A stretch of DNA of 64,000 nucleotides, from NCBI RefSeq assembly GCF_011769985.2, contig NZ_CP039734.2, positions 434,001 to 498,000 of the forward strand. Reading direction: 5' to 3'. The notes below the pieces were generated by a model that made no database searches, was not told the origin of the DNA, and saw only the letters and a list, made by a program, of their open reading frames with translations. Source of the stretch: Sulfurospirillum diekertiae. Lineage in GTDB: Bacteria > Campylobacterota > Campylobacteria > Campylobacterales > Sulfurospirillaceae. A program made the translations under genes and the position numbers. Positions within the stretch are counted from its first letter, which is position 1, and every line of letters starts with the position of its first letter. Shown here one piece after another: positions 2,184 through 53,356 of this stretch.

Positions 2184-2195
2184 TTTACATGTAAA
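2184..2195. repeat. TTTACATGTAAA palindrome, exact, intergenic
   Basis: Lies 7 bases beyond the mscL stop codon, between mscL and sodB. Confidence 0.95.
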
Positions 2196-7568: not shown

Positions 7569-8831
7569 ATGTTTAAATTTGATGTAACAAGCGATGCCTG
7601 TGTCAAGTGTGGTAAGTGTATACCTGTTTGTACAATTCACGAAGTCAACCGTGATGAAGTTACCAGTCCCAGAGGTTTTCTTGACCTTCTAGGTGCCTAT
7701 CAACGAGGTGAACTTGAACTGGACAAAAATGCTAAAAGTATTTTTGAAAGCTGTTTTTTGTGCACCAACTGCGTAAGTGTCTGTCCGAACGATTTGCCAG
7801 TCGATATGTTGATAGAACAAGCGCGTAACGACATTCGCAAAAAATTTGGGCTTGCATGGTACAAAAAACTCGCCTTTTTCTTGCTTCGCAATCGTAACAT
7901 CATGGATGTTCTTGCACGCTTTGGCTTTATGTTCCAAACCTGTGGTTTTAAAATAGTGGAGAAAAAAAGCTCCATGTATCTGCGAAACTTTCCCATTATC
8001 AAGATGGACAGACTTTTCCCAAGTCTCGCAAAAAAAACCTTCTTAAACTCCCATCCCGATGTCATCCATAATGGTGGCAAAGGCAAAGTGGGCATTTTCA
8101 TCGGCTGTTTAGCCAATTACATGTATACCGACATCGGCAAGTCACTTTTAGAGATTTTGAAAGAGTTGCAGATAGACGCGTATCTCATAAAACAACAAAA
8201 ATGCTGTGGTGCACCTCAATACTTTACAGGCGATTTTGATAGCGTGGATTATTTGGCAAAATTTAACATTGAGTACATCGAAGGCTTTGTAAATGAACTT
8301 GATGCCATCATTATTCCTGAAGCAACGTGTAGTGCGATGATCAAAGAGGACTACGCGCATTTTTTCCATGACCAACCTGAATGGAAAGCACGTGCCATTG
8401 CCATCAAACCTCACATTTTTATGGCAACCGAATACCTAGAGAAAAAGACAAATTTGGCTGAAATCTTGGCTACCAAAGCTCGTAAAAGTGAAGTAGTCAC
8501 CTACCATGACCCATGCCATGCGCGCAAAATGCAAGGCGTTTGGAAAGAGCCACGTAACCTCATTTCTCAAAACTACGTCATTAAAGAGATGAGCGACCCG
8601 AACCGCTGTTGTGGTTTTGGAGGCGTTACGATGCAAACAGGAAATTACCGCTTTGCCAAAGCCGCAGGACTTCCAAAAGCCGCGATGATCAAAGAGACGG
8701 GCGCAGAGTATGTGAGTGCCGAGTGTAGTGCGTGTCGCATGCAACTAGGCGATGCCATGCATGGGCAAAAAGTGGACACTATCTTTAAAAATCCAATCGA
8801 ATTGATTGCTAAAGCACTTCGAGAGGGTTAA
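7569..8831 (+). CDS. (Fe-S)-binding oxidoreductase, GlpC/glycolate oxidase iron-sulfur subunit type
   Basis: 420 aa. There are two N-terminal 4Fe-4S motifs (CVKCGKCIPVC near 12-22 and CFLCTNCVSVCP near 60-71), then two CCG domains (KCCGAPQYF near 214 and NRCCGFGGV near 345) with CHARK between. This is the layout of GlpC, GlcF and LutA-type subunits that pass electrons from a dehydrogenase to quinone or HdrB-like centres. No flavin subunit is adjacent, so the substrate is open. The same gene follows hemN in C. jejuni (Cj0991c), which points to a conserved but undefined partner role. It ends at a hairpin made of two genome palindromes. Confidence 0.85.
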   Translation: MFKFDVTSDACVKCGKCIPVCTIHEVNRDEVTSPRGFLDLLGAYQRGELELDKNAKSIFESCFLCTNCVSVCPNDLPVDMLIEQARNDIRKKFGLAWYKKLAFFLLRNRNIMDVLARFGFMFQTCGFKIVEKKSSMYLRNFPIIKMDRLFPSLAKKTFLNSHPDVIHNGGKGKVGIFIGCLANYMYTDIGKSLLEILKELQIDAYLIKQQKCCGAPQYFTGDFDSVDYLAKFNIEYIEGFVNELDAIIIPEATCSAMIKEDYAHFFHDQPEWKARAIAIKPHIFMATEYLEKKTNLAEILATKARKSEVVTYHDPCHARKMQGVWKEPRNLISQNYVIKEMSDPNRCCGFGGVTMQTGNYRFAKAAGLPKAAMIKETGAEYVSAECSACRMQLGDAMHGQKVDTIFKNPIELIAKALREG

Positions 8832-8839
8832 GTTAAACG

Positions 8840-8851
8840 TTTACATGTAAA
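8840..8851. repeat. TTTACATGTAAA palindrome, exact, intergenic
   Basis: First member of the hairpin pair, 8 bases after the stop of the Fe-S oxidoreductase. Confidence 0.95.
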
Positions 8852-8861
8852 GCTTTTCAAC

Positions 8862-8873
8862 TTTACATGTAAA
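8862..8873. repeat. TTTACATGTAAA palindrome, exact, intergenic
   Basis: Second member of the hairpin pair, 10 bases after the first. Confidence 0.95.
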
Positions 8874-8979
8874 CAGAATACTTCTTAAAACAGAAAACTT
8901 TTGAGTCAATACTTCAGAGCAATCTAGAATAATTTGAGTATACTAAATCGCAGAACACTTTCTTTAGATGAGGTACATC

Positions 8980-11817
8980 ATGAAAGCGGTAATTTCTCTT
9001 CTTTTTATACTGATATCTTTTATGAGTTATTCACAGGCATCCAGTATTGATATTACGCCAAGTGAGCAAGCGTGGCTGGATAAAACTAAAATACTCAAAG
9101 TGCGCATCACCAAAGACCTTCCTCCGTATCAATTTATCCAAGATGGCGAATATGTTGGCATTAGTGTTGAATATATCAAATTTTTTGCAGCTATGTTTAA
9201 TCTCAAAATAGAATATGTTACCGATGGTAGCTGGACGGAAGCACTAAGACGTGTCCAAACACATGATGGTATCGATGTCATTTTGAGAGTCACTCCTAAT
9301 TCGGAGCTAAAACAAACGATGCTTTTTAGCAAATCTTATTGTTCCTTTCCATTTGCTCTCCTCACCCCAAGTACACTTAAAGCAGAAAATTTTTTCGATT
9401 CAAACCCCAAAAAAATAGCCATAGTGCCAAGTTATGTCATTAACGAGAACTTAAAACAGGATTATCCTCATTTCCTTTACATGACGTATCCCAATTCACT
9501 CGAAGCAATGAGGGCAGTCAATGCACACAGTGTAGATGGGTTTATTGGCGATATTGCTATTATGAGTATGTTTGTTCAGGCTTATCATTTAGATAATGTT
9601 CGAATTTCTAATATTCCCCGTTACACGACAGAGGAGCAATCGGTTGCAACTGCAAAAGATTGGCCAGAATTTATCTCTTTATTTAACAAAATGCTCGATT
9701 CTATGCCTACGGATTTACATGTAAAAATCAAACGAAAATATTTACCTTTCGCAACATCGGAACGACCTTCTCCCATTGTTCCCGAAATCGAATTAACCGA
9801 GAGTGAAAAAGCGTATCTTCAAAAGCACCCTGTTATTAGCGTGACTAATGAGCTTAGTTGGTATCCGTATGATTTTAATGAAGATGGAGAAGCTAAAGGG
9901 TATTCTGTTGATTATATGAGACTTCTAGCCGATAAAATTGGTATCCGTTTAAATTTTATCAGTGGCACATGGCCTAATGTGTATGAAAAATTTAAAAACA
10001 GAGAGATTAGCGTAGCGCAACCACTCATTCCCTCAGATGAGCGACATCAGAAATTTCTGTATAGCACTAAATTTATTACCATGGATCTGGCACTTGTTAG
10101 CCAAACAAAGCGTCACGATATTAACACTATTGATGATTTAAAGGGTAAAACCGTTGGTGCAGGGAGAGCGTGGCCCACAACAAAGTATCTTAAAGAGGAG
10201 TACCCTGAGCTTACAGTTGTAGAGTATGAGACAACGAAAGAGATGTTAGAAGCGGTTGCATTTGGGCTGATTGATGCAGGAGTAGATGATGCTTTATCGG
10301 TACAATACGTCATCAGTAAAGAGATGCTTTCCAATCTTCATATTGTCTCCAAACTTGATTTACAAAATTTAAGAGATAAAAATCTTTACATTATGATGCA
10401 TCCAGAAGATGAACCCTTACAGAGTATTATTAACAAAGCTCTCAATAACGTAACGCAAGAAGAGCTTTCTACCCTTAAATCCAAATGGTCTAAAAGTATT
10501 CTTCCTAAAGAGACGAGACTTGCTTTTTCACTGGATGAGCAAATTTATTTGGCACAAAAAAAGCGTATTACGATGTGTATTGACCCTGATTGGATGCCTT
10601 TAGAGATGAACCAAAAGGGTAAGCATGTAGGAATGGCTGCAGATTATATGCATGAGATGGAACAATTTATTGGTTTGCCTATCGAGCTTGTTAATACTCA
10701 AACATGGTTAGAATCTTTAGAATATGCCAAAGAACGTAAGTGTGATATTTTTTCTCTTGCCATGCCTACACCCGAACGCAGACTGTATATGAATTTTACC
10801 CATCCTTATATGCAAATACCCATCGTACTTATTTCCAATATTGATAAAGTTTTTTACACGGACATTGATATGCTGACTGGAAAATCCATTGGCATTGCAA
10901 AAGGGTATGCGTATGGTGAAATTTTAAAAGTACGATACCCCAATATGCACTTTGTGGAAGTTGCAAGTGATGCAGATGGTCTAAAGCACGTGGAGCAGAA
11001 AAAGCTTTTTGGCTATATCGGAACACTGGCTACGGTGGCATATCAAATTCAAAAAGATTACTATGGATCACTGAAAATTGTGGGTAAATTTGATGATAAA
11101 TGGGAGCTTGGTGTTGCAACGCGCAATGACGAACCTCTTTTGCTCTCTATTTTCGAAAAAGCGATTGAATCGATTGATCCAACCAAAAATCAATCGATCT
11201 TAAATAAATGGATATCGGTTAATTATGAAGAGCGTATGAATTACACCTACATCTATTTGTTAGCCGTGATCACGGTGGTGATTATTTTAATTGTTTTGAT
11301 ACGACAGTATCAACTCAAAAAGTATAATGCACAACTTGAAATTCTCTCCAATACGGATAAATTAACAGGCATTCATAACCGTTTAAAATTGGATGATATT
11401 TTAGAGTATGAAAAAAAGATATTTGATCGCGATCAGTCACCTCTTTCGATTATTATATTTGATTTGGATTATTTTAAAAATGTGAATGATAACTATGGAC
11501 ACAAACGAGGCGATGAGGTTCTCCAAAGTATTGCCAAAATTGTGACAAACGTTAAACGCGAAACGGATATATTTGGGCGCTGGGGTGGCGAAGAGTTTTT
11601 GCTTATCTGCCGTGATACCAACATTAAAGGTGCAAGACATTTAGCTGAAAAAATAAGAGCAGCTATTGAGGCATATGAATTTCCTGAAATTATCTCGGTA
11701 ACCGCTAGTTTTGGAACAGCACAATTTGAAAAGTATGACAGTATTATCAAAATTTTTGACAAAGCAGATAAAGCACTTTACGAAGCCAAAGAACATGGGC
11801 GTAACCGAGTCGTTTAA
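8980..11817 (+). CDS. Diguanylate cyclase with three tandem periplasmic solute-binding domains
   Basis: 945 aa from the ATG at 8980, which has GAGG six bases upstream. A signal peptide (about 1-22) is followed by three repeats of the type 3 solute-binding fold, each opening with a similar strand (KILKVRITKDLPPYQF, HPVISVTNELSWYPYDF, KRITMCIDPDWMPLEM). One transmembrane helix (about 757-775) leads to a GGDEF domain. The active site GGEEF and the RxxD inhibitory site (RETD, five residues before it) are intact, so it should make c-di-GMP and be product-inhibited. The sensor resembles BvgS/amino-acid binding proteins, so polar ligands such as amino acids are likely. It is monocistronic, between two palindrome sites. 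Confidence 0.92.
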   Translation: MKAVISLLFILISFMSYSQASSIDITPSEQAWLDKTKILKVRITKDLPPYQFIQDGEYVGISVEYIKFFAAMFNLKIEYVTDGSWTEALRRVQTHDGIDVILRVTPNSELKQTMLFSKSYCSFPFALLTPSTLKAENFFDSNPKKIAIVPSYVINENLKQDYPHFLYMTYPNSLEAMRAVNAHSVDGFIGDIAIMSMFVQAYHLDNVRISNIPRYTTEEQSVATAKDWPEFISLFNKMLDSMPTDLHVKIKRKYLPFATSERPSPIVPEIELTESEKAYLQKHPVISVTNELSWYPYDFNEDGEAKGYSVDYMRLLADKIGIRLNFISGTWPNVYEKFKNREISVAQPLIPSDERHQKFLYSTKFITMDLALVSQTKRHDINTIDDLKGKTVGAGRAWPTTKYLKEEYPELTVVEYETTKEMLEAVAFGLIDAGVDDALSVQYVISKEMLSNLHIVSKLDLQNLRDKNLYIMMHPEDEPLQSIINKALNNVTQEELSTLKSKWSKSILPKETRLAFSLDEQIYLAQKKRITMCIDPDWMPLEMNQKGKHVGMAADYMHEMEQFIGLPIELVNTQTWLESLEYAKERKCDIFSLAMPTPERRLYMNFTHPYMQIPIVLISNIDKVFYTDIDMLTGKSIGIAKGYAYGEILKVRYPNMHFVEVASDADGLKHVEQKKLFGYIGTLATVAYQIQKDYYGSLKIVGKFDDKWELGVATRNDEPLLLSIFEKAIESIDPTKNQSILNKWISVNYEERMNYTYIYLLAVITVVIILIVLIRQYQLKKYNAQLEILSNTDKLTGIHNRLKLDDILEYEKKIFDRDQSPLSIIIFDLDYFKNVNDNYGHKRGDEVLQSIAKIVTNVKRETDIFGRWGGEEFLLICRDTNIKGARHLAEKIRAAIEAYEFPEIISVTASFGTAQFEKYDSIIKIFDKADKALYEAKEHGRNRVV
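9714..9725. repeat. TTTACATGTAAA palindrome, exact, in GGDEF sensor CDS
   Basis: Read in frame as LHVK at the end of the first solute-binding domain. Confidence 0.92.
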
Positions 11818-11819
11818 TC

Positions 11820-11831
11820 TTTACATGTAAA
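11820..11831. repeat. TTTACATGTAAA palindrome, exact, between convergent genes
   Basis: Fills nearly the whole 17-base gap between the stop of the GGDEF sensor and the stop of the convergent sotB-like gene. It may serve as their shared 3-prime signal. Confidence 0.95.
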
Positions 11832-13151: not shown

Positions 13152-13556
13152 ATGAAAGAAGCAAATCTCTGTCCATGCGGTAGTGGTAAAATGTATGCAC
13201 AGTGTTGCGAGCTATACCACAAAAACTATAACGCTCCTACATGTGAAACACTGATGCGTTCACGCTACAGCGCATTTGTCTTTGGATTGATCGATTACCT
13301 CTATGAAACGACGCATCCAAGCCATCGTACAAAGAAATTGAAAGAAGAAATTACCTTTACATGTAAAGGTTTGGCGTGGACAAAACTCGAAGTTTTGGAG
13401 ACATGGCAAGGCGGTGAAAATGACAAAGTGGGCAAAGTCTCTTTTCGAGCTTCGTATGTGCAAGATGGGCATGAAGGTTTACATGGTGAACATTCACGTT
13501 TTAAACGCTATGGTAAGGCGTGGATGTATGTTGATGGAGAAGTAAAGGGCGAATAA
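13152..13556 (+). CDS. YchJ-like protein with SEC-C zinc motif (UPF0225)
   Basis: 134 aa from the ATG at 13152, because GAGGAAG precedes it. An ATG 18 bases earlier has no ribosome site. The N-terminal CPCGSGKMYAQCC is the SEC-C zinc-binding motif also found at the SecA tail. TLMRSRYSAFVFGLIDYLYETTHPS is the YchJ family core. Function is not known for certain. It has only the N-terminal SEC-C copy, whereas E. coli YchJ has two. The stop overlaps the start of the Crp-family gene (TAATG), so the two are coupled. A 16-bp extended palindrome (13354-13369) is read as FTCK. Confidence 0.85.
   Translation: MKEANLCPCGSGKMYAQCCELYHKNYNAPTCETLMRSRYSAFVFGLIDYLYETTHPSHRTKKLKEEITFTCKGLAWTKLEVLETWQGGENDKVGKVSFRASYVQDGHEGLHGEHSRFKRYGKAWMYVDGEVKGE
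13356..13367. repeat. TTTACATGTAAA palindrome, exact, in ychJ-like CDS
   Basis: Extended to a 16-bp palindrome by CC and GG on either side. It is in the FTCK frame. Confidence 0.92.
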
Positions 13557-21998: not shown

Positions 21999-24371
21999 AT
22001 GCATATCATCAATGATTTTTTCTTACTCATCTGGGGTGAGAGGTTAAACCAAGAAGTTGTTTTCGATGAAAAACATACTACAGAGTTCGATCAATACAGA
22101 TTAACTTCTTTCGATAATTTTTGCGACAGTGTCGCTATCTTATTGATCATGAGTCCTCAGAATTTTACCAATATGGCAATCTTAGAAGAACCCAAAACAG
22201 TTTTAAATACACTTTTTCAACATGCAACATTTAGCAAAGAAAACATCCAATATGCGCAATCTCAACTGCTGGGTTATCTGGTTACTTTGGGTAATTTGCA
22301 AGTCAACCATGCTATCACAAAGCGCTTAGAGCTTTTAAAAAAAGAGGGGATTATCTCTTATGATGCTGTGCGTTCTTTAGGCAGTATCATCTCTCTTATC
22401 GAAGAGAAAAAAATCGAAGTAACCTCTTTACATGTAAAGCGTGCAACAAGCCAAGAAAACTACTATAAAACCAAACTCAATCTTCTGCTTACTGCCATTG
22501 AAAATCTGAAACAAGCGGTTGAAACACCTCGTTTGCATGATCGTTTGAGTGCCATACCCGAACGTCTTGAAAATCAGCGTTTTTCCATTGGAATTACAGG
22601 TGTTATGAATGCGGGTAAATCGACGATGCTCAATGCACTTTTAGGTCAAGAGGTGCTAGGAACATCTGTTGTCCCTGAAACGGCGAACCTAACCCTCATT
22701 AAATACGCCAAAAACCCTTACGCCATTGTCAATTTTTGGAATACCAAAGAGTGGAGCAAGATCGAAGAGGGTGCCAAAAGTCTTAAAAGTTTAGAAGCAT
22801 TTGTTAAAGAGAGCAAAGCGCATTTTGGTGACACCTTTAATGCACTCGTAACGCCAAAAGGGCAGAGTGAGTCTATCTCTGTCGAAGATTTGGCCCTTTA
22901 CACTTCGGCAAAACACTCTGATAAAAAATGCAATCTTGTTAAAAGTGTTGAACTTTATACTGATTTGAAGTTTGTCCAAGATGGTGTTCAAATCGTTGAT
23001 ACTCCGGGTCTTGATGATCCTGTCGTGCAACGTGAAGAGATTACGTTGGAATACCTCAGTGAATGTGATTTGATGATTCATCTTATGAATGCAGCGCAAG
23101 CAGCGACCCAAAAAGATATCGATTTTATCATTGACGCACTTTTGTATCGTAATGTGGCACAGTTGCTGATTGTGATTACACGTATTGATGCGATTGCCGA
23201 GAAAGAGCTTCAAGAAGTAATTGCCTATACCAAACGCAGCATCGAAGCAAGGCTTAACGAGCAAAACAAAGGCGCAAAACTCGATGAAGTGATCGCTAAA
23301 ATCGTCTTTATCCCCATTGCTGGGAAACTTGCCTTAATGCATAAATTAGGGCAAGAAAAAGATGCCCTCGCACTTGGATATGATATGGAACGTACTGGCT
23401 TACCTCTGGTGGAAGCCTATTTGGAAGATGTTCTTTTTGGAAGTAATAGCCAAAAAGCCAATCTTATTATCTCCGCCAATCGAAAAGAGATTGAGTCTGT
23501 CATTACTGAGTCGATGAATACCTTCGAGCAAGAGCTCCACTACTTAAGTATCTCGAATGAAGAGATTGAACACGCCTACGCGAAACACCAAGAAGAAAAA
23601 GCGGTCATGGCAGACTTTTTGGAGCAGATCAAAACCAGCGTGGCGCAGAGCAAAGAGGAGATGGAACACTACTTTGGCACCCTTTCCAAATTTGCAAGCA
23701 ACCAACTCAATAAACTTCAAGATATTGTTAAGCGCCGTATTACAGACGATGTAAGTTATGAGTTTAGCAAAAACAAAAAAGCGCCCAAAGAGGAGCGCAT
23801 TGGCTCGATCATAGAAACGGCGATCAAAGATGGTATGGTCGATTTGGTGCGCGATTATCGCTATGAGTTTCAAAAAAAGATGCAAAGTTCCTTAGAGTAC
23901 ATGGATGCAAAATACGGTGAATTTAAGACAGAGGGCACAGCCCCAATGTTTGATGCCAAAGCCTTTTGTGAAGAGCATTTAGGTTCACTCCTGATTTTCA
24001 AAAACAGTACCATTGTGATAGCGGCAACCAATGATGCGATCGCAAAGTATGGCAAGAATGATCCTAGTGCACTTTCTATGAGCTTTGAGACGATTTTTGG
24101 AACGGAATTCTCCCACATCAAAGAGATGCTTGAGGAGAAACTCCACAACGTTAATCAAGAACTTTTAGGTTCATTTGTCAATCTCTGTGAAGCACCTGCA
24201 CGTGTCATTGAAGAGCGTTTTAGCACAGAAGGTGTATTGATCGAACATGCGATGCGCCAGATGAAAGATCAATCGCTCAACCGTGAAGCACGCATTTTAG
24301 AGATTAAAGAAAAAGAGCGTGTAATGGGCATCGTCTTAAATGACTTAAACGTACAAAAGGAGTCAAAATGA
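21999..24371 (+). CDS. Bacterial dynamin-like GTPase, first of a pair (DLP1-like)
   Basis: 790 aa. An N-terminal helical region of about 190 residues precedes a GTPase domain: G1 GVMNAGKST near 200, G3 DTPGLDD near 333, G4 TRID near 392. A long, charged, largely helical C-terminal half (about 500-780) would form the stalk. In C. jejuni the homologous pair Cj0411/Cj0412 also follows frdB. Its structure shows two proteins assembling into a tetramer that bridges membranes. The role here is therefore inferred as membrane remodelling or tethering. It overlaps the second gene by 4 bases. An exact genome palindrome at 22427 is read as LHVK. Confidence 0.9.
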   Translation: MHIINDFFLLIWGERLNQEVVFDEKHTTEFDQYRLTSFDNFCDSVAILLIMSPQNFTNMAILEEPKTVLNTLFQHATFSKENIQYAQSQLLGYLVTLGNLQVNHAITKRLELLKKEGIISYDAVRSLGSIISLIEEKKIEVTSLHVKRATSQENYYKTKLNLLLTAIENLKQAVETPRLHDRLSAIPERLENQRFSIGITGVMNAGKSTMLNALLGQEVLGTSVVPETANLTLIKYAKNPYAIVNFWNTKEWSKIEEGAKSLKSLEAFVKESKAHFGDTFNALVTPKGQSESISVEDLALYTSAKHSDKKCNLVKSVELYTDLKFVQDGVQIVDTPGLDDPVVQREEITLEYLSECDLMIHLMNAAQAATQKDIDFIIDALLYRNVAQLLIVITRIDAIAEKELQEVIAYTKRSIEARLNEQNKGAKLDEVIAKIVFIPIAGKLALMHKLGQEKDALALGYDMERTGLPLVEAYLEDVLFGSNSQKANLIISANRKEIESVITESMNTFEQELHYLSISNEEIEHAYAKHQEEKAVMADFLEQIKTSVAQSKEEMEHYFGTLSKFASNQLNKLQDIVKRRITDDVSYEFSKNKKAPKEERIGSIIETAIKDGMVDLVRDYRYEFQKKMQSSLEYMDAKYGEFKTEGTAPMFDAKAFCEEHLGSLLIFKNSTIVIAATNDAIAKYGKNDPSALSMSFETIFGTEFSHIKEMLEEKLHNVNQELLGSFVNLCEAPARVIEERFSTEGVLIEHAMRQMKDQSLNREARILEIKEKERVMGIVLNDLNVQKESK
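22427..22438. repeat. TTTACATGTAAA palindrome, exact, in first dynamin gene
   Basis: Read as LHVK. With the flanking C and G it is a 14-bp palindrome. Confidence 0.92.
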
Positions 24372-26392
24372 GTCTGCTCGAGAGTTTTGTCACTTCTTAT
24401 AAAGAACATTTTCTAAAAGTTGTTCCAACCTTTGATGCTACGCTTTTGGGAGCTCTCAAAAAAGTGCAATATGTACTTCTTGAAGAGCAGCAACTCCCTT
24501 CTATCCAACTCAAAAAAGCGTTAGATCGTCTTCAAATGCGCTCCGAAGAGCCGATGAAAGTTGCTATAACAGGGCAGTTTTCCAGTGGAAAATCAACGTT
24601 TCTCAATGCACTTTTAGCCAAAAATATTCTTCCCACAGGCATCACGCCCGTGACGTCCAAAGTCAATTATATTCGTTATGGTGAAGAGTTTAAAATCCGT
24701 GTGCGCTATAAAGACGGGCGTGATGAATACCATGACATCAACACGATTGCGCATTTTACAGACCAACGTGAGCATGTTGAAGACATCGCTTATCTTGTGC
24801 TTTATGCGCCACTCAACATCCTCAAAGATGTTGTATTTGTAGATACTCCAGGTCTTAACTCTCAAGCGGCGAGTGATACGCAAACGACTGAGAAAGTGCT
24901 CAAAGAAGTCGATGGCATTATCTGGTTGACACTCATCGATAATGCGGGAAAAATGAGTGAACTTCAAGTTTTGGAAGAGTACCTTGGCAAGTACCAAAAC
25001 AAATCTCTTTGTGTTCTAAACCAAAAAGACAAATTTACGCCACAACAGATCGAAGAGACAACGAATTACGTGAAGACGGCTTTTAAAGAGTTTTTTAGTG
25101 ATGTCATTCCTATCTCGGCACGTCAAGCGTTAGAGTCACGTAGTCACGACAAAAAAGTGATGATGGAAGAGACGCTTGAAACGTTTATGCATGATTTACA
25201 TGTAAAGCTTGAAAACGGTGGTGAGAAGCTTGACTTTGCACAAGTTGAGCATGATTTTAAAGCGTATCAAACGACACTGGATTCGATCTTACAAAGTGAT
25301 TTGGGTGCTAATCTTAAACTTTTGGAAGAGTCCAATATCGATAAAGTCTTGGATTTTATTCGCAACGAAATTCAACCCAAATCGACCCAATCCAAAGAGT
25401 TTGCTATTACCAAAGAGATTAAAGATATTACAGCCAAATTGATTGCGCAACACCAACTCTTTCTCTCTATTTACGATGAACTTTTAGGCGAAATTATCCG
25501 TTTTGAAGCTGAGGCAAAAGGTTTATTTACTGAACTAAAAGGTAAATTCTCACATGATCTGAAAAGTGCGTTTATGCGCATTGAGCAGATCATTGAGACC
25601 ATTGCTGATGCCATTTACAATCAAATCACCACGGTAACACAAATACGTTATGAAGCGCAAAAAACAGGGCTTTTCAGTAAACACCAATCGTATCTGCCTT
25701 TTGAGTACCAAGCGCCGAAAATTAACTCTGATCTCATCTATAAAAGTCTTTTTTACGAAGAGAATTTGATTGGCAAAATGTTCAAACAGTACGTAAAAAA
25801 TCTAGGCGCTATTCAAAATGAAGTCAACGATAAAAACCGTTTGGTGTACCGTTCATTAGAGCAGGGTATTTTGAAATGGCAAGCACCGTATGAGGTGATT
25901 CGTAAAAGTGAAGAGCTTCACTCCGACATCGAATTTGCCAATATGCGCCGTTTTGCTTCCAAGGCGTATGAGAGCATCTTAAAACCGTTTAACGATGAAA
26001 TCGCTAGTTCCTACGCGAAGATCAGTTCCGAGTTTAACCATCTTAGTAGCGCGGTCAGTTTCAACTACCAAAATGCCACTGAAGTATGTGTAGCGTTTTT
26101 GGAGAACAAAATCGAAAAATCCGCTAAGCTCTACGAGGAAAATCCCACAAAATTTTCACTCTATACCCCCAAACTCGATGAGATTAAAGAGCGCCTTAGA
26201 ACCTCATTTCATCTCTATGAGCTTGAAAATATGATGAACACACGAAACACATTCCTCAATAAAGATTATGACCGTTTAATCAGTCAATTTACGGCGATTA
26301 AAGAGGAAAAAGTAGCCTTTTTGGAAGAGCGAAAAGCACGTCATCATAAGATTATAGAGCAAATAGAAACGTTGGTGAAAGAGATAGTCTAG
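24368..26392 (+). CDS. Bacterial dynamin-like GTPase, second of a pair (DLP2-like)
   Basis: 674 aa. The GTPase domain comes early: G1 GQFSSGKST near 68, a conserved threonine-rich switch (GITPVTSK) near 95, G3 DTPGLNSQ near 158, G4 NQKD near 218. Helical stalk sequence fills the rest, with a short hydrophobic stretch in YNQITTVTQIRYEA that could be a membrane paddle. By family knowledge this partner provides the membrane-binding half of a heterotetramer with the upstream protein. The four-base overlap supports balanced synthesis. Palindrome at 25195, again read as LHVK. Confidence 0.9.
   Translation: MSLLESFVTSYKEHFLKVVPTFDATLLGALKKVQYVLLEEQQLPSIQLKKALDRLQMRSEEPMKVAITGQFSSGKSTFLNALLAKNILPTGITPVTSKVNYIRYGEEFKIRVRYKDGRDEYHDINTIAHFTDQREHVEDIAYLVLYAPLNILKDVVFVDTPGLNSQAASDTQTTEKVLKEVDGIIWLTLIDNAGKMSELQVLEEYLGKYQNKSLCVLNQKDKFTPQQIEETTNYVKTAFKEFFSDVIPISARQALESRSHDKKVMMEETLETFMHDLHVKLENGGEKLDFAQVEHDFKAYQTTLDSILQSDLGANLKLLEESNIDKVLDFIRNEIQPKSTQSKEFAITKEIKDITAKLIAQHQLFLSIYDELLGEIIRFEAEAKGLFTELKGKFSHDLKSAFMRIEQIIETIADAIYNQITTVTQIRYEAQKTGLFSKHQSYLPFEYQAPKINSDLIYKSLFYEENLIGKMFKQYVKNLGAIQNEVNDKNRLVYRSLEQGILKWQAPYEVIRKSEELHSDIEFANMRRFASKAYESILKPFNDEIASSYAKISSEFNHLSSAVSFNYQNATEVCVAFLENKIEKSAKLYEENPTKFSLYTPKLDEIKERLRTSFHLYELENMMNTRNTFLNKDYDRLISQFTAIKEEKVAFLEERKARHHKIIEQIETLVKEIV
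25195..25206. repeat. TTTACATGTAAA palindrome, exact, in second dynamin gene
   Basis: Read as DLHVK, as in the GGDEF sensor copy at 9714. Confidence 0.92.
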
Positions 26393-26421: not shown

Positions 26422-26443
26422 TTATCTTTACATGTAAAGATAA
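26422..26443. terminator. 22-bp perfect palindrome centred on a TTTACATGTAAA copy
   Basis: The 12-mer at 26427-26438 is extended by TTATC on the left and GATAA on the right into a 22-bp perfect palindrome, 29 bases after the dynamin operon. Likely a 3-prime end signal of that operon. Confidence 0.6.
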
Positions 26444-31612: not shown

Positions 31613-32365
31613 TTATTCACTTATGAGTTTATTTCTTCGTGATTCGTAGGCATTACGTAAAAAAGGATAGAGTTCAATAGCATCTTTTTTAAAACTGTCA
31701 TACTCTTTTACATGTAAAGAAGTTTTATTGACGATATAGAATGCTGTAACAGCTAAAGATTCTCCTGAGCTATTAAATAAATCAGGATCATTGTCATTAA
31801 TGTAATTGATAGGATTGAGCCATGCGTCACCCACAAGACCAACAATATCGCGGACATTGGATGGTCCCAATAGCGGAAGGACAACATGAAAGCCACTACC
31901 CACGCCATAATACCCAAGTGTTTGTCCTAAATCTTCATCGTGTGCTTTAATGCCGAGCTCTTCACCTGCAACGTCACGAAAGCCTAAAATACCCATCGTT
32001 GAATTAAGTACAAAACGTTCAGTTTCTTCCCAACTATTGTGCAATTTAAGCTGTAAAAGATTGTTAACAAAACGGATAGGAAAGAAAAGGTTCTCAAAAA
32101 AGTTTGAGACACCATGCCGAGCCATTTCAGGAACAATATACGCATAGCCTTGTGCAGTTGGTCGCAAAAGGTATTCATAAAAATGATCGTTAATGGATGT
32201 CATGATTTCATTGTAACCGCTCAGTGGATCAAAAAGATTTTCACTATTTTGTGTATTAAATTCAGCTTCTAAATCTCCATTGCTCTGCAAATCGCTACCA
32301 AGGTACTTTATATTTGAGGCACTTAGTAAGGATACGCTCAATAAACAGGCTAAAATAAAACGCAA
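31613..32365 (-). CDS. mlaA: MlaA/VacJ-type outer-membrane lipid asymmetry protein
   Basis: 250 aa from a TTG start seven bases after GAGG. It removes misplaced phospholipids from the outer leaflet and hands them to MlaC. Family segments are FDPLSGYNEIMTSINDHFYEYLLRP, SNFFENLFFPIRFVNNLLQ, and ERFVLNSTMGILGFRDVA with EDLGQTLGYYGVGSGFHVVLPLLGPS. The N-terminus is a signal (LLSVSLLSASN) with no lipobox cysteine, so unlike E. coli MlaA it is not a lipoprotein. The same is seen in some other phyla. Palindrome at 31707 read as LHVK. Confidence 0.92.
   Translation of the reverse strand: MRFILACLLSVSLLSASNIKYLGSDLQSNGDLEAEFNTQNSENLFDPLSGYNEIMTSINDHFYEYLLRPTAQGYAYIVPEMARHGVSNFFENLFFPIRFVNNLLQLKLHNSWEETERFVLNSTMGILGFRDVAGEELGIKAHDEDLGQTLGYYGVGSGFHVVLPLLGPSNVRDIVGLVGDAWLNPINYINDNDPDLFNSSGESLAVTAFYIVNKTSLHVKEYDSFKKDAIELYPFLRNAYESRRNKLISE
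31707..31718. repeat. TTTACATGTAAA palindrome, exact, in mlaA
   Basis: Read on the minus strand as SLHVKE near the C-terminus. Confidence 0.92.
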
Positions 32366-40813: not shown

Positions 40814-40830
40814 TCTTTACATGTAAAGAT
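40813..40830. repeat. 18-bp palindrome containing an exact TTTACATGTAAA
   Basis: 12-mer at 40816-40827, extended by ATC and GAT. It fills the 18-base gap between convergent stop codons of the endonuclease and the GGDEF-EAL gene, like the site at 11820. Confidence 0.95.
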
Positions 40831-40831
40831 A

Positions 40832-42739
40832 TTAGGAGGCTATTGAAGGGGTTGGTTCAGCGAAAAAGAGACCTTGTGAATACTCAATTCCTAAAGATTT
40901 TATTTTGTCATAAATCATCTCATTGCTAACATACTCCGCAATAACTTTTATATGCGCTTCTTTGGCAAAAGAGACAATGTTTTTAACCAGTAAAAATGAG
41001 ATTTTATCATCCAAAATCTTTTGAATGATAGTGCCATCAATTTTAATGAAGTCAGTTTTAATTTCTGTAAGATAGATAAAATTGGAGTAGCCACTGCCAA
41101 AATCATCAATCAAAATTCGATATCCCAATTTTTTGAGCATCAAAAGATTGTTTTTTGCATCATCTCGATGGGTTATCTCTTCGCTCTCTATGATTTCTAA
41201 TCCCATTCTATGAGCGATATTTTTTTGCTTTGCATAACTCTTTAAAAGAGTAAGGATTGCTTCATCAATAATATCATGAGGATTTAGATTGATATTAATA
41301 GCAATAGATGGTTTTTCGACTAACTGTTCATAACAAATTCGTAATACTTCTTTCGTAATGTTTCGTAGAACAAAAGTTCCTCTGATCGTTGGGAGAATTT
41401 TTTCAGGTAAGATAATGGAGCCATTTTTATCAATAATGCGAAGTAAAGCTTCATAGTGCGATAACTTTTGTGTTTGTGTGTCAACAATGGCTTGATAGTA
41501 GCAAAGGATTCTATTTTCTTCAATGGCTGCTTTTATTTCATTGAGTGATAGGCATAGATTTTGGGTATATTCATTTTCATCGTAAATATCGATCGTATTT
41601 CTACCTTTATTTTTAGCATTGTAGAGTGCTATATCGGCTAGCTTAAAGGCTTCAGAGAAGGTTCTTGATTTGTATGGTACTAAATTAACCCCAATAGAGA
41701 CAGTGACTTTGATCGATTCATTGGAAGAAATATGAAATCTCGTTTCTTGAATTGTATGAGAAATCCTTTCAATAACATTCAGTGCGCCTAAGTGATCATC
41801 TCTACGCGTTTTGGCCAAAATTAAAAATTCTTCGCCCCCATAACGTATGACGATATCATCTTTATGGCGAATAGCGAGTAAGATTGTGTCGGCAACTTGT
41901 TTTAAAACTTTATCACCGGCATCATGCCCGTAAGTATCATTGACTTTTTTAAAGTAGTCAATATCCAAGGTTGCTAAAATATAGTCATTGAGATTAATGA
42001 AATCTTCATATTTTTGAAGATAATTTCGGTTGTATACATTGGTGAGTTTATCAATAAAAGCAGTTTTTTTAACGGCTCGAAATCGTACTGCTTGAATAAT
42101 GACAAAGAACAAGATAATAAATATAACTGCCATAACTGCGAAAATACCATTTTGTATCATATGAATGATTTGGTTAATTTCTTCAACTTTTTGGATGGAA
42201 AAATCAATGGCTAAAATAAGTTCGACATTGTTTTGATACATAATGGGAACAAGGTAGCTCATTGAGAGTTGTTGGAGCATTGAATGCCGTATAATCAAAG
42301 CTTTTTTCTGGGCATAAATATCAAGCCATTCGGGGCTATCAGCATCAAATTTTTGGTCGATAAATGCCTTATCCTCATGCTTAGAAGCATCTCCTAGAAA
42401 TCTAAATACACCTCGGCTGTCTCTGTACAAAAGATAGGCATATTTTATATTGGGGGTGATTAAGGTTTTTAAGCTCTCCTCAATTTTATGTTGAAGCGCA
42501 CTATTAAGTTTGATATCAGAAGTATAATCGGTACTCTCTTTTAAGAGAGATTGGATTGATGAAGCACTGTTATTGGTAATCGAAAATACGTCAGAAATTG
42601 AAATTTCAAATAGCTTTTTTTCAATGCTTTGTTCCAGATTGGCTGTTGAAAAAAGCACGAGTCCTAAAATGGTCGCAATAATAAACGTTGGAAAAATGAA
42701 ATAGAATGGATATTTAAAAAAGAGCTTGTCGCTATCCAT
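40832..42739 (-). CDS. Membrane-bound GGDEF-EAL c-di-GMP turnover protein
   Basis: 635 aa. TM1 (about 13-33) and TM2 (about 196-216) enclose a periplasmic sensor domain of about 160 residues. The GGDEF domain has GGEEF but its inhibitory site reads HKDD, without the arginine of RxxD. The EAL domain keeps YEALLRI, the metal and base residues in NINLNPHD, DDFGSGYSN and IKIDGT, so phosphodiesterase activity is plausible and net output is uncertain. It is the last gene of an operon with a TonB-dependent receptor and a periplasmic protein, which suggests the sensor responds to the cargo or state of that receptor. Confidence 0.92.
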   Translation of the reverse strand: MDSDKLFFKYPFYFIFPTFIIATILGLVLFSTANLEQSIEKKLFEISISDVFSITNNSASSIQSLLKESTDYTSDIKLNSALQHKIEESLKTLITPNIKYAYLLYRDSRGVFRFLGDASKHEDKAFIDQKFDADSPEWLDIYAQKKALIIRHSMLQQLSMSYLVPIMYQNNVELILAIDFSIQKVEEINQIIHMIQNGIFAVMAVIFIILFFVIIQAVRFRAVKKTAFIDKLTNVYNRNYLQKYEDFINLNDYILATLDIDYFKKVNDTYGHDAGDKVLKQVADTILLAIRHKDDIVIRYGGEEFLILAKTRRDDHLGALNVIERISHTIQETRFHISSNESIKVTVSIGVNLVPYKSRTFSEAFKLADIALYNAKNKGRNTIDIYDENEYTQNLCLSLNEIKAAIEENRILCYYQAIVDTQTQKLSHYEALLRIIDKNGSIILPEKILPTIRGTFVLRNITKEVLRICYEQLVEKPSIAININLNPHDIIDEAILTLLKSYAKQKNIAHRMGLEIIESEEITHRDDAKNNLLMLKKLGYRILIDDFGSGYSNFIYLTEIKTDFIKIDGTIIQKILDDKISFLLVKNIVSFAKEAHIKVIAEYVSNEMIYDKIKSLGIEYSQGLFFAEPTPSIAS

Positions 42740-42740
42740 A

Positions 42741-43196
42741 TTAGATTCCTTCTATAAATTGATTGAAGGTGGAAGGCAAGACAATAGCCTTCTTGTCAAG
42801 TCTATTTTTAATAAAAACAATATTAGGCCTACTCTTGTTCCAAAAAAGTGCTCCATAGTATTTGTCATCTGATAATAATTTACGATAGTTATTTGTAAAA
42901 AAGAGTCTTTTAGTATTGTCGCATAACGTCTCACGATCAACCGTTTTATTGACAAAAACAAAGTTTGATGTTTCACATTTTTGAGTGAGCGTAAAATATT
43001 GAGAATAGACTTTCTTCTCCATCTCTGACATATTGGGAATAAAAAGTTTGATCTCTTCATGAAGAGAGGATGTTGCAATTTCAGAGATGATTTTCGCCTC
43101 AAGTTCTATCTCTTTGCTGTAAGGTTGAACCAAAAAAGTATAGTTTTCTGCCGATAAAAGGCCAAAAAAAGTTAAAAGAAGGATGAGTCTTTTCAT
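42741..43196 (-). CDS. Periplasmic protein of unknown function, receptor/GGDEF-EAL operon
   Basis: 151 aa from the ATG at 43196, which overlaps the receptor stop (TAATG). A signal peptide (about 1-16, ending LLSAEN) and no membrane segment. Two cysteines (KCETSN and TLCDNT) might form a disulfide. The C-terminal part, ALFWNKSRPNIVFIKNRL, resembles ends of small solute-binding-like proteins, but I cannot assign a family. Placed between a TonB-dependent receptor and a GGDEF-EAL sensor with 1-base spacing, it could pass a signal from one to the other. Confidence 0.7.
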   Translation of the reverse strand: MKRLILLLTFFGLLSAENYTFLVQPYSKEIELEAKIISEIATSSLHEEIKLFIPNMSEMEKKVYSQYFTLTQKCETSNFVFVNKTVDRETLCDNTKRLFFTNNYRKLLSDDKYYGALFWNKSRPNIVFIKNRLDKKAIVLPSTFNQFIEGI

Positions 43197-44149
43197 TAGA
43201 AAACCCACCTAAAGGAGAGAGTGACACTTCGATCATTGTCATCTAATGCAAAATTGGTTTTTCCAAAATTTTCTAAATACAGTGACTTTGTCGATTTATC
43301 TAAAATGTTGCTTGCTTTAATACTATAACTCAAATCTTTTGTGACATGATAGGTCGCACCAAGGCTCATATCAAAGCTATTGGGAATATCAAGATTAAGG
43401 TATTCATAGCCATTTCGATAGATCACTGAAGTGAAGTAATCAAACTTTTGATACCCACCCATAAATTTGATAAAACCGCCTTTGGTTGAGTTATTGACGG
43501 TCTCACTCAAATTGGAAGTATAGTAATTGAGTTTGATTTTGTCCCTATTGGAAAAGCTATACTCGTAGTCAAAGATGAGCCCATTTGTGGTGATAGTACG
43601 GTCAATATTGATAAATCCAACAGGAGTAAGATAGAGAAAATTATCCATATCAACATGATTGTAGTTAATGCCAAATTTGGAATCTCCTTTAGTATAAACT
43701 GCTTCGAGGGTATAGATATAATACTGCTGAGATTTGAGATTGGGTTTAGTTCTATCGGCATAATCGACATTGTAAAAAGATGGAGGAAGGGCTGTTTGGG
43801 TATAAAAACTTTTAAATCCCCAATTTTCGGTTGGGGTATAGATAGCGCCAACTCTTAAAAGCGTCTCTGTACTGTCTTGTAGGTAGGCATTACGATCATA
43901 GGAATCAAGTTTTGCATTAGCCACTAAAATAAGTGTATCGTTTAGTTTATAATTGTCTTGAAAGAGTATCGATGAAGTGGTCTCTTCATCAAAAGCGTTA
44001 TAGTTTCCTACATTGCGTGTTTGATTCATGAAATTGGTGGTTTCACGGTTTTGCACATCATAGGTTTTGTTTTTAACATTGAGTGCTGCGATGAATGAAT
44101 TGTCTTCAACATCAAATGATTTAGAAAGATATGTCAAACGAACTGCTAA
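43196..44149 (-). pseudogene. TonB-dependent receptor, 3-prime fragment (barrel part)
   Basis: About 318 codons of outer-membrane beta barrel, cut off from its 5-prime part by the IS21 element. Alternating aromatic strands and the final SVTLSFRWVF, ending in an aromatic residue, are typical of TonB-dependent receptors. Reading continues upstream without stop into the element, with a TTG near 44137 as the only local start, so an independent product would lack plug and signal peptide. Together with the 5-prime part the intact gene would encode about 650 residues, a normal receptor size. Confidence 0.88.
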
Positions 44150-44256
44150 ACTGGTCAGTAGAAAATGTAATTTGAGAGTTGCATTTTGATTTAAAACCTT
44201 AAAGAACCAAGTTAAATTGGTTAAACTCCATTTTCAATTTTTTGGAAAGGAGTTGA

Positions 44257-45368
44257 ATGTTAAAAAAAGGTGAAATTAAAATGATAAAGAAGTTTTTAGC
44301 TGAAGGGTTTAGTAAAAGTGCCATTGCTAGAAAGTTAGGTATTTCAAGAGAAACTGTAAGGCGCTATGCCAATCTTCCAGATGATTATATTCCCCATATC
44401 AATAGACCTCCTGTGATTAACAGTGTTGATCCTTATTTGCCACATATCGCCAAGATGTTAGAGACGGCAGAGCAGCAGAAAAGTGAAATACCCTTAACCG
44501 TCATTTATGAAGAGATTAAGAAGCTTGGATATGATGGAAGTCTAAGGTGGCTTCAACAAGTCATACTAAGATATGAGCTTAGAGCTCGAGCCAAATTAGA
44601 TGAGCCTATTATACGCTTTGAAACCAAACCAGCCCAGCAGATGCAAGTTGACTGGGTAGAGTTTCCAAGGATAATTTATCCGCCTTTGTAGCGACGATGG
44701 GTTACTCTAGAGCATCTTATGTGGAATACGTTAATAATGAGAAGATTGAGACCTTGATAGGGTGCCATATGAACGCTTTTGCCTACTTTGGTGGTGTTCC
44801 AAAAGAGTGTTTATATGACAATATGAAAACTGTCATATTGTCACGAAATGACTATGGTAAAGGTGATCATAGATTCAATCCCTTGTTTGCTGACTTTGCC
44901 AAACACTGTGGATTTAGTATCAAAGTATGCAAACCCTATCGCGCTAAAACCAAAGGAAAAGTTGAGAGATTTAACCATTATCTGCGGTATAACTTTCATA
45001 ATGGATTACGAGTGAGACTCTCTATGAAACATTACACATTAACGCTTGATAATGCAAATGCGGAAGTTCTAAAATGGTTGGACAATACCGCCAATAAACG
45101 CATCCACCAAACGACATTACAGATGCCATTTGAGTTGTTAGCACAGGAGCAGTTACAGCTACTTCCTGTGCCTAAAGCCTATCAAGGAATCCACCCTAAA
45201 GCTTTGATTGAAAGTGTAGCTAAAAAATATTCCCCAATCAATTCTCACAAAGACTTGGAAAAATTATATATCCCCAATAGAGACATTCAATGTTACGATG
45301 AGTTTATACCCATGGTTGCAAACATCATCCTTCCTGTTGGATTTTATGGTGGTGCATTATGGAGTTAG
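44257..45368 (+). pseudogene. istA: IS21 transposase IstA, frameshifted
   Basis: Two overlapping pieces: 44257-44691 encodes the N-terminal helix-turn-helix (FSKSAIARKLGISRETVRRYA) and the first catalytic Asp in MQVDWVEF. The remaining part, in another frame, runs to 45368 and holds the second Asp (CLYDNMKT) and the Glu (KGKVERFNHYL) of the DDE triad. Continuous reading is restored as WVEFP then DNLSAFVATMGYSRA if one A is added near 44668-44672, so a one-base deletion is the simplest explanation. There is no slippery heptamer to suggest programmed frameshifting. Confidence 0.87.
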
Positions 45369-46177
45369 ATACCTCTATCGATGAGTTATGTAAAGAACTC
45401 AAGCTCTCTATCATAGGCGAAAAATATCATGATATTGCCAGTATGGCAGCTAAAGAGAATTGGCAATATACACAGTTCTTGGAGGAGGTATTACGAGTGG
45501 AAGTAGATAATAGACTAGGAAGGTCTAAAAATATGTTGACCAAACTCGCAGGATTCCCAGTTATTAAGACATTAGAGCAGTTTGATTACACTTTCTCCGT
45601 TGGCGTGAACCGTAAACAGATTGAAGAACTCTCAAGCCTAATATTTGTTAAAAAGTATGAGAACATCATCCTCTTAGGTGAAAGTGGTGTGGGTAAAACA
45701 CATCTTGCTATTGCGCTAGCACTCAAAGCGGTGCAACATCGCTATAAAGTAAGATTTACCACCATAAGTGAGCTTTTAAGTAATGCAAATAGAGCCAAAA
45801 AAGAGAAAAAATATGATAGCTTCTTGAAATCTATCGCCTCTCCATCGGTACTTGTCATTGATGAGATTGGATATTTCAATATGAGCAAAGAAGAAGCCAA
45901 TCACTTTTTTCAAATTATTTCTAAACGCTATGAAAAAAGCTCTACCATTTTTACTTCAAATCTTGTATTTAGTAAATGGGTTCAAGTCTTTGCAGGAGAT
46001 AAAATCGTTACAACCGCTATATTAGATCGAGTGTTACATCACTCACATATCATCAATATTCAAGGAGATAGCTACCGACTTAAAGAGAAGAAACAAACAG
46101 GAGTTTTACACTCAGAAATCTATAAGTTTGAAGCTAAATCTTCAAACATAGAAGGTCAAAATCAAGAGGTGGTTTAA
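45359..46177 (+). CDS. istB: IS21 transposition helper ATPase IstB
   Basis: 272 aa. AAA+ ATPase of the DnaC/IstB group that assists IstA in target DNA binding. Walker A GESGVGKTHLA near 103 and Walker B VLVIDEIGYF near 160 are intact, with the sensor segment IFTSNLVFSKW. It overlaps the istA reading frame by 10 bases, normal for the family. Intact, although its partner transposase is broken, so the copy is likely immobile unless helped in trans. Confidence 0.94.
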   Translation: MELDTSIDELCKELKLSIIGEKYHDIASMAAKENWQYTQFLEEVLRVEVDNRLGRSKNMLTKLAGFPVIKTLEQFDYTFSVGVNRKQIEELSSLIFVKKYENIILLGESGVGKTHLAIALALKAVQHRYKVRFTTISELLSNANRAKKEKKYDSFLKSIASPSVLVIDEIGYFNMSKEEANHFFQIISKRYEKSSTIFTSNLVFSKWVQVFAGDKIVTTAILDRVLHHSHIINIQGDSYRLKEKKQTGVLHSEIYKFEAKSSNIEGQNQEVV

Positions 46178-46217
46178 GTTTCAATTCGCAACTTTTTTAC
46201 ACTATAAACTGACCAGT

Positions 46218-47212
46218 TCTGCGCTTCGCTTGACAAGATAGGCATTGGTTTTGAAAAATCGTAGATCTTCGTTAAAATTTTTAGGAATGGTTGCCCCAAG
46301 ATTGGAGAAATTTAAAACAGGGATCAGTCCTATACCTTGCGCATTTGCTTCATCATAACTTCGATCATTCACATCGACAGAGAGGTTGGCTTTAAGCGAC
46401 TTGTCGTCTAGAAAATAGTGTGTATAGTTAATGAAAAAATCTTTGGAGAGATTTTATCCACTATCAGGTGTAGCATCAAGGGCGAGTCCCGCATAATTAT
46501 TTTTAGAAACATCCGTATAGCCCATGTTGATTTTTGTCGTTTCATTGCTAACGTCGGCATAAAGATATTTCTTACCGCCATTGGTATTAAGTTTATGACC
46601 ATCGTAAAGTGTTGTATATTTAATCTGTTCATGGTTGAGAAACATTAAATAAGACCAACCATTTTCCAAACTTGAAGAGTTGGTAAAACTTTCTGAATGA
46701 GAACCTTTTGTTGTGACCAATCCATTGAGTTCAGAGCCATTCTCTTTCAGCGCTGATTTGGTGTAAATACGTACAAAATAGATACCGGTTTCATTGCCAA
46801 AGGAAAAGGAACTTTCACCGTAATAAATCTCAACGTGATCAACAAAATCTAAAGGTAAATCGCTCCAAGAGAGTGAAGTGGATTGATCGTAACCTGAACT
46901 GATTTCATGGTCATTAATAAAAAATCTAAAAAAGCCACTGGTGGTTGTTTTAGAACCGATCAGAGAGTAATTGGTCAAGCCAAATTGGTTGGTATTAACG
47001 TTAAGAAGAGGGAGTTCTTTTAAAATATCATTGAGTTTTGTGTATTGCATCAATCGAATTTCTTTTTGCGAATAAATAATAACATGTCCAATTTTTTCAT
47101 TGACCGTTTGCAATGAATTATCGGAAGTTGTTTTATATTCTTGGAGTAAAGAGTCGAGTGAGTCAGCTAAAAGTAGACCGACACTTAATGCAATCAATAA
47201 AATAATTTTCAT
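46218..47212 (-). pseudogene. TonB-dependent receptor, 5-prime fragment (plug part) with in-frame stop
   Basis: A signal peptide (MKIILLIALSVGLLLADS) is followed by a plug domain: IGHVIIYSQKEIRLMQ, LPLLNVNTNQFGLTNYSLIGSK, SLPLDFVDHVEIYYG. At 46454-46456 the frame meets TAA (after ATPDSG), then continues without shift for about 78 more codons of barrel sequence (NLSKDFFINYTHYFLDDKS) up to the IS border. The gene therefore has two lesions, a nonsense codon and the IS21 insertion. First gene of the operon with the periplasmic protein and GGDEF-EAL genes. Substrate class cannot be told from the plug. Confidence 0.88.
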
Positions 47213-47401: not shown

Positions 47402-48283
47402 CTATTCTACGCTTCTTACTTTTTTCATTTCTTCTTCTCTCTCTTTGAGAAAGAGTTCTAAGTTATATTTGAGACGATATTGCGGTGTCATAAGGTGAAT
47501 GAGAACATCGCCCATATCAATCACTGTCCAGTTGTCATCAGCATCAACATTTAAAAAACTTTCACCTGCGCCTTTAAGCTCTGTTTTGAGATGATCTAAA
47601 AGTGAAAGCCCGTGTCGCTCACCCATTGTCGTTGCTATAACAACAGTGTTAACAAAATAATCTTTGCCACTCATATCAAATACTTGTATATCTTCTGCTT
47701 TTTTGTCGCTTAGAGCAGTTACGATTCTTTCAATTCTATTATCCATTGGATTCCTTGTATAAAACGCTATCACTTCATTTTTGATGGCTTTTGGAATAAA
47801 TCTTGGGTCCAAAAATGAGCGGAGCTTTGAAGAACTGATATTAACATTAATTGGTAAAATTTTCAAGCCTTTTGGAGGAGTAAACTCTCCTCTTGGTGCT
47901 ACAACAAATTCAACAAGGTTACAAAGCTCATCGTAGCGGTTCCATTTAGGAAGTGCAGAAAAACTATCACTTCCAACGAGCAAAAAGAGTTTAGCTCCTG
48001 GGTACAAACGCTTTACATGTAAAACAGTTTCGATGGTGGGAACTTGTCTTTTTTGATCACATTCATATGAAAAAATTTCGACTTTCTCCATACCTTCAAA
48101 CATCTTAGCCAGCCATTTTTGGCGCATAGCAGCGGGAGCACAAAAACTTTCTTTAAAAGGGCTGAGGTACGTAGTAACAACTAAAAGCTTATCAATATCA
48201 AGAATTTCAAGGGCTTTTTTAACAATGAGTTCGTGTCCAGAGTGAGGAGGATCGAAAGAACCTCCAAAGATAGCTATGTTCAA
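47402..48283 (-). CDS. nadD-rsfS: Fused nicotinate-nucleotide adenylyltransferase and ribosome silencing factor
   Basis: 293 aa. Residues 1-178 are NadD (GGSFDPPHSGHE near 6-17, ISSSKLRSF near 150) and make deamido-NAD from nicotinate mononucleotide. Residues from 180 are RsfS (MDNRIERIVTALSDKKAEDIQVFDMSG, then NWTVIDMGDVLIHLMTPQYR), which binds L14 and blocks subunit joining in starvation. In C. jejuni they are separate adjacent genes. Here no stop separates them, yet an internal ATG at 47746 with CAAGGAA six bases before it would yield a free 114-aa RsfS. So it may give a fusion, free RsfS, or both. Divergent from gapA. Palindrome at 48012 read as LHVK. Confidence 0.88.
   Translation of the reverse strand: MNIAIFGGSFDPPHSGHELIVKKALEILDIDKLLVVTTYLSPFKESFCAPAAMRQKWLAKMFEGMEKVEIFSYECDQKRQVPTIETVLHVKRLYPGAKLFLLVGSDSFSALPKWNRYDELCNLVEFVVAPRGEFTPPKGLKILPINVNISSSKLRSFLDPRFIPKAIKNEVIAFYTRNPMDNRIERIVTALSDKKAEDIQVFDMSGKDYFVNTVVIATTMGERHGLSLLDHLKTELKGAGESFLNVDADDNWTVIDMGDVLIHLMTPQYRLKYNLELFLKEREEEMKKVRSVE
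47746..47757 (-). promoter_or_regulatory. Internal ribosome-binding site and ATG for RsfS
   Basis: CAAGGAA (47751-47757 on the minus strand) before the ATG whose A is at 47746, inside the continuous nadD-rsfS frame. Spacing is optimal. Confidence 0.6.
48012..48023. repeat. TTTACATGTAAA palindrome, exact, in nadD-rsfS
   Basis: Read on the minus strand as VLHVKR in the NadD part. Confidence 0.92.
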
Positions 48284-50609: not shown

Positions 50610-52158
<1,549 letters not shown>

Positions 52159-53322: not shown

Positions 53323-53334
53323 TTTACATGTAAA
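53323..53334. repeat. TTTACATGTAAA palindrome, exact, intergenic
   Basis: 14 bases after the lipoprotein stop. Confidence 0.95.
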
Positions 53335-53344
53335 GCAAAAAAGC

Positions 53345-53356
53345 TTTACATGTAAA
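53345..53356. repeat. TTTACATGTAAA palindrome, exact, intergenic
   Basis: 7 bases beyond the nusA stop. Confidence 0.95.

Follow-up and report, generated by a model that had tools for sequence, protein, structure and literature searches.

The locus lies in a 64,000-nucleotide stretch of the Sulfurospirillum diekertiae chromosome (hereafter the window; NZ_CP039734.2, positions 434,001 to 498,000 of assembly GCF_011769985.2). Here, the gene of a 4Fe-4S / CCG-domain Fe-S oxidoreductase, the protein of which is 100% identical to that of S. diekertiae JPD-1, is followed by two 14-nt arms separated by an 8-nt loop, and then by a sensor gene on the same strand. The stop codon (8829-8831) ends 9 bp before the first TTACATGTAA, the 10-letter core of each arm. 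A first-pass annotation, made from the letters alone, had described the arms as two palindromes forming a perfect 14-bp hairpin. This observation is exact. The features considered are collected in the table.

Features of the window; positions count from its first letter
Positions	Strand	Feature
7569-8831	+	4Fe-4S / CCG-domain Fe-S oxidoreductase gene
8839-8852		Left arm GTTTACATGTAAAG (palindrome 8840-8851 plus flanking G and G)
8853-8860		8-nt loop CTTTTCAA
8861-8874		Right arm CTTTACATGTAAAC (palindrome 8862-8873)
8968-11817	+	Large sensor gene, SBP_bac_3 repeats with GGDEF domain
53323-53356		Second 22-bp-spaced pair (53323-53334 and 53345-53356), AAAGC-AAAAAA-GCTTT inside; intergenic, convergent genes; same kind of RNA hairpin, -18.4 to -18.9 kcal/mol
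2184-2195		Single copy, intergenic, just past a gene 3' end
9714-9725		Single copy inside the SBP_bac_3/GGDEF gene
11820-11831		Single copy between the stop codons of two convergent genes
13356-13367		Single copy inside a gene
22427-22438		Single copy inside a gene
25195-25206		Single copy inside a gene
26427-26438		Single copy between convergent ORFs
31707-31718		Single copy inside an ORF
40816-40827		Single copy between convergent ORFs
48012-48023		Single copy inside an ORF
51221-51232		Single copy inside an ORF
56379-56390		Single copy inside an ORF
59909-59920		Single copy inside an ORF
40832-47212		6.4-kb run of 8 genes without orthologues in the segments of the two relatives compared (G001, G009), GC 0.35, no palindrome site; looks like acquired DNA

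Distribution and conservation of the palindrome

The 12-letter palindrome TTTACATGTAAA occurs in 16 exact and 8 one-mismatch copies in the window against 0.64 expected, and in 791 exact copies in the 2.78 Mb genome (G000) against 1 for the reversed word. All 24 genomes of the genus carry it, with 14 to 792 copies each and 0-3 control words per genome. Among 249 genomes of the order it is confined to this family, with a lesser presence in one other family, probably Sulfurimonadaceae by inference. The core TTACATGTAA shows the same pattern, with about 1,000-1,500 sites in site-rich members and 0-10 in nearly all other families. No open-access paper was found to contain TTTACATGTAAA and none of the 18 that contain TTACATGTAA appears, from title and abstract, to concern these bacteria. 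A search of Rfam gave no match above a curated threshold. Viral contigs with CTTTACATGTAAAG, the commonest 14-mer form, showed scattered single hits and a few operator-like clusters, nothing informative about Sulfurospirillum phages.

In 464 kb we counted 221 perfect TTACATGTAA against 41 one-off copies. Inner one-off variants are no commoner than chance and deviations concentrate at the outermost base. The strict part is TACATGTA (244 copies v 6.1 expected in the 464 kb), whereas the flanks drift among genera and on the plasmid. Depletion of near-miss words under a high-order Markov model was not used as evidence, since the expectation of that model is inflated by the palindrome itself. The 39,868-bp plasmid of the same strain (compare Sulfurospirillum strain ACSDCE, PMC8865925) carries 14 TACATGTA with looser flanks, for example CTTACATGTAG, resembling the form in genus g5, and none with the full TTT...AAA flanks; it also carries a D12 methyltransferase and a ParB-like gene. 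Sister genus g2, represented by genome G042, carries a different iterated palindrome with the same CATG centre, TATCATGATA (31 v 2.6 expected; ATCATGAT 111 v 31), mostly in coding DNA.

Sites favour gene 3' ends and convergent intergenic regions. In the 464 kb, 41% of TTACATGTAA sites lie in the 7% of bases that is intergenic and 59% lie inside genes, with 7.5 sites per kb in convergent regions, 2.8 in tandem, 1.6 in divergent and 0.30 in coding DNA; gene calls were our own, hence exact figures are approximate. Sites cluster 2-20 bp after stop codons and were found at 68 of 215 gene 3' ends v 33 of 245 5' ends. No T-tract follows single 3'-end sites. Spacing of sites along the chromosome is Poisson-like rather than regular.

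In order to determine whether the sites are maintained as DNA, two relatives were compared. Against G001 (82.8% DNA identity) 116 of 129 aligned sites (90%) are identical, compared with 100 of 607 control 10-mers (17%), and sites inside genes are conserved just as strongly: their third codon positions match 97.5% against 62.1% elsewhere and GTA is kept 56/57 v 384/882. The flanks of the sites are slightly less conserved than other DNA (80.8% v 82.7% identity, z -3.1), which indicates permissive positions, and density is lower in accessory than in core genes (0.19 v 0.32 per kb, p 0.04), although the latter test is weak. Against G009, almost equally distant (codon position 3 58.9% v 62.1%), only 10 of 143 sites (7%) remain. 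A protein tree, based on one gene and with several open forks, places G009 inside the site-rich group, so this is secondary loss.

A+T content oscillates with a period of about 11.25 bp in register with the palindrome centre for about 98 bp each side, in coding and intergenic sites separately, which 0 of 200 random sets reach. The wave itself, of 11.0-11.25 bp, is general in these genomes (G000, G001, G009 and G042) and independent of the palindrome, being present in G009 and G042, where the palindrome is absent. However, the words of the palindrome are the most phase-locked of all hexamers in the genome. The related palindromes of G042 and G136 (a genome with 340 TTACATGTAA sites), which are mostly coding, do not show the lock.

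The paired copies as an RNA hairpin

As RNA the focal pair folds into exactly the 14-bp stem (61-nt piece, -18.0 kcal/mol, z -5.3, none of 200 shuffles as good). The first-pass annotation reasoned that, since the unit is itself a palindrome, the extra matched flanking G and C bases show that the pair as a whole has been kept as an inverted repeat, and named a genome search for other close pairs as a check. That search yielded 52 close pairs of TTACATGTAA (control 0), 11 of them at exactly the 22-bp spacing of the focal pair (binomial p = 7e-7 over 31 possible spacings), and one more lies in the window. Of the 12 pairs in the 464 kb, 10 are intergenic, mostly just past a stop codon.

The interpretation is partly supported: its conclusion is supported, albeit by other evidence than was given. 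The inner G and C are simply the consensus of the element, as in CTTTACATGTAAAG, and the outer G-C is shared by few orthologues (alignment columns 3/38, 5 of 11 unpaired). Better evidence comes from 30 non-redundant 22-bp pairs, in which the bases just inside the arms pair more than shuffling gives (WC p 0.002, 0.003 and 0.025), and from orthologues in which the stem is kept with changes on both sides. What could not be seen from the sequence alone is that the unit is a chromosome-wide element, mostly single, so most copies have nothing to do with a hairpin.

At the focal locus eight relatives besides the window keep a 22-bp pair and others keep one copy or none. On 11 orthologous rows 92.7% of stem cells pair and the covariation score is reached by 1 of 500 shuffles; the sequences are few and related, so this is modest evidence. 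The telling rows are G009 (TTTGCATGTAAGGCTGAAAGCTTTACATGCAAA) and sequence L089, in which both palindromes are broken but the stem survives by a compensatory A-U to G-C change. In S. cavolei (L093) and SCADC (L090) an unrelated hairpin with a shared GGTCGAAATTTT(C/T)GACC core takes the place of the palindrome pair just after the Fe-S gene. The 12-nt spacer AGCTTTTCAACT between the TTACATGTAA cores is the exact reverse complement of the spacer in orthologue L095, hence the spacer is inverted in the window lineage, which we infer is best explained by inversion between the arms, for example by template switching. Elsewhere on the chromosome (contig C1 at 408831, 1096420, 1576940, 2603486, 2662852 and 2696511), pairs at 19-21 bp spacing share the interior GGAAAAATCC or close variants (TTACATGTAAGGAAAAATCCTTACATGTAA), perhaps a small dispersed hairpin element.

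The focal pair does not qualify as an intrinsic terminator, since the stem is stable but no T-run follows 8874 on the + strand and a terminator scan found only a match on the minus strand, where no gene ends.

Interpretation and comparison with known systems

Two layers can be distinguished. The analysis demonstrates that YTTTACATGTAAAR, with strict core TACATGTA, is an iterated palindromic DNA mark of Sulfurospirillum, held at hundreds of fixed positions by selection or drive acting on the DNA itself and secondarily lost in one lineage, and that at this gene's 3' end two marks 22 bp apart form a hairpin that is conserved separately. What reads the mark, including any uptake, binding or cleavage at the sites, is inferred, as is the role of the hairpin, which probably serves as a 3'-end stabiliser or terminator-like boundary. 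Our preferred but tentative explanation of the mark is that it works like a DNA uptake sequence. In this view a receptor of the natural-transformation machinery would recognise the palindrome on bendable DNA, such that kin DNA carrying the word would be taken up and recombined. This would spread and restore perfect copies, disfavour imperfect ones and let marks settle in permissive places, often doubled at gene ends; when a lineage changes or loses the reader, the marks would decay and coding positions revert. Against this explanation, known uptake sequences are not palindromes, all characterised cases being oriented words, and no uptake or competence data for Sulfurospirillum and no receptor were found. 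ComEC and a secretin are present in all 25 genomes tested, site-rich and site-poor alike, hence do not track the mark and decide nothing. Presence of TACATGTA on the plasmid and the reach of the A+T wave, further than the two tracts of H. influenzae USS, also count against it. A search for the reader among genes shared by G000 and G001 but missing from G009 in the 464 kb gave only a 44-codon ORF.

The main rival, possible but less likely, is a chromosome-architecture site, in which the palindrome is the central contact of a dimeric protein on bent or wrapped DNA, for example a nucleoid protein or a preferred DNA gyrase gate, placed at 3' and convergent gene ends where positive supercoils collect. 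The phased flanks, the phase-locked hexamers and the density at convergent gene ends suggest this, and E. coli gyrase has a 130-bp symmetric motif with 10.75-bp periodic flanks, AT facing the protein, and sites enriched downstream of transcription units (PMC6379681). Nevertheless, the wave also occurs where the palindrome is absent, G136 and G042 lack the phase lock, gyrase motifs are degenerate whereas this core tolerates no mismatch, and gyrase is presumably universal while sites are patchy. In its boldest form, equally doubtful but not excluded, this would be a chromosome-wide architectural code: an invariant palindrome in rotational register with an 11.25-bp curvature wave, read by an unknown protein, or by gyrase as a dedicated gate, at roughly 1,200 fixed positions, densest between convergent genes, and lost in one lineage that lost the reader.

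A HIP1-like element, created and restored by a methylation- or mismatch-repair-linked drive as proposed for cyanobacteria, is unlikely. The palindromic strict core, the deviations at the outermost base, the alternate palindromes in relatives and the mostly coding sites of G136 and G042 all parallel HIP1 (PMC4390886). However, among the three methyltransferase families searched, which did not include type I or gamma-class enzymes, none tracks the sites: D12, N6_N4 and DNA_methylase are all absent from G136, G017 and G021, which carry 340, 238 and 412 TTACATGTAA sites, and G000 itself has only D12 genes. The 3'-end bias in Sulfurospirillum is also unlike a purely coding element. That the whole family consists of transcription terminators or 3'-end RNA signals, with the focal hairpin as typical member, is suggested by the 3'-end preference, the hairpins at pairs, the conserved focal stem and the unrelated hairpins in S. 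cavolei and SCADC. It is very unlikely as an account of all copies, given that most are single and a lone perfect palindrome has no loop to fold, that most lie inside genes where they are equally conserved, and that no T-tract follows single 3'-end sites, but it stays likely for pairs. Chance, an assembly artefact or a recently copied mobile repeat, for which only the high copy number speaks, are refuted by the controls, by flanks that differ at every copy and by the same positions being kept in another species.

The iterated palindrome of Sulfurospirillaceae is apparently undescribed. Iterated strict words such as DUS, USS and HIP1 are among the few sequence features that mark a whole chromosome as self, and how HIP-type palindromes are made and kept is unsolved. 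The genus offers a clean natural experiment in two relatives about equally distant from the focal strain, one keeping 90% of sites and one 7%, a comparison of whose gene sets should expose the reader. If the word is an uptake signal it would be the first palindromic one we know of and would show uptake specificity in an environmental, organohalide-respiring group; adding it to constructs could also help transform these strains.

Noc/ParB and SlmA sites share a TTT-centre-AAA palindromic architecture scattered over a chromosome, but the present word has far more copies, no TTTCACGTGAAA occurs in the 464 kb, and a second ParB/Noc protein is excluded, since there is only one chromosomal ParB_N hit in site-rich genomes and in G009 and G042 alike. 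HIP1 (GCGATCGC) is likewise a short strict palindrome with hundreds of copies, deviations concentrated at the outer bases and alternate palindromes in relatives (PMC4390886); the Sulfurospirillum word is AT-rich, has a strong 3'-end and convergent bias and lacks a tracking methyltransferase in the three families searched. The E. coli gyrase cleavage motif and the Mu strong gyrase site share the symmetric, about 11-bp periodic A+T flanks and the association with regions downstream of genes (PMC6379681), but the gyrase motif is degenerate at its centre, which here is invariant. Neisseria DUS (GCCGTCTGAA) and Pasteurellaceae USS (AAGTGCGGT, ACAAGCGGT) resemble the word in a density of about one per 2 kb, in the excess of perfect over singly mismatched copies, named as a shared trait of USS and DUS (PMC1626085), in inverted pairs at gene ends, as described for Neisseria (PMC2397512), in conserved positions in permissive regions with fewer in accessory DNA, both reported for DUS, in lineage-specific forms around a shared core and, for USS, in AT-rich helically spaced flanks. 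The Sulfurospirillum word differs in being a perfect palindrome, in an A+T wave that spans about 98 bp on both sides and in its presence at lower strictness on a plasmid, and is therefore, with uptake inferred by analogy alone, regarded as DUS-like rather than as a DUS.
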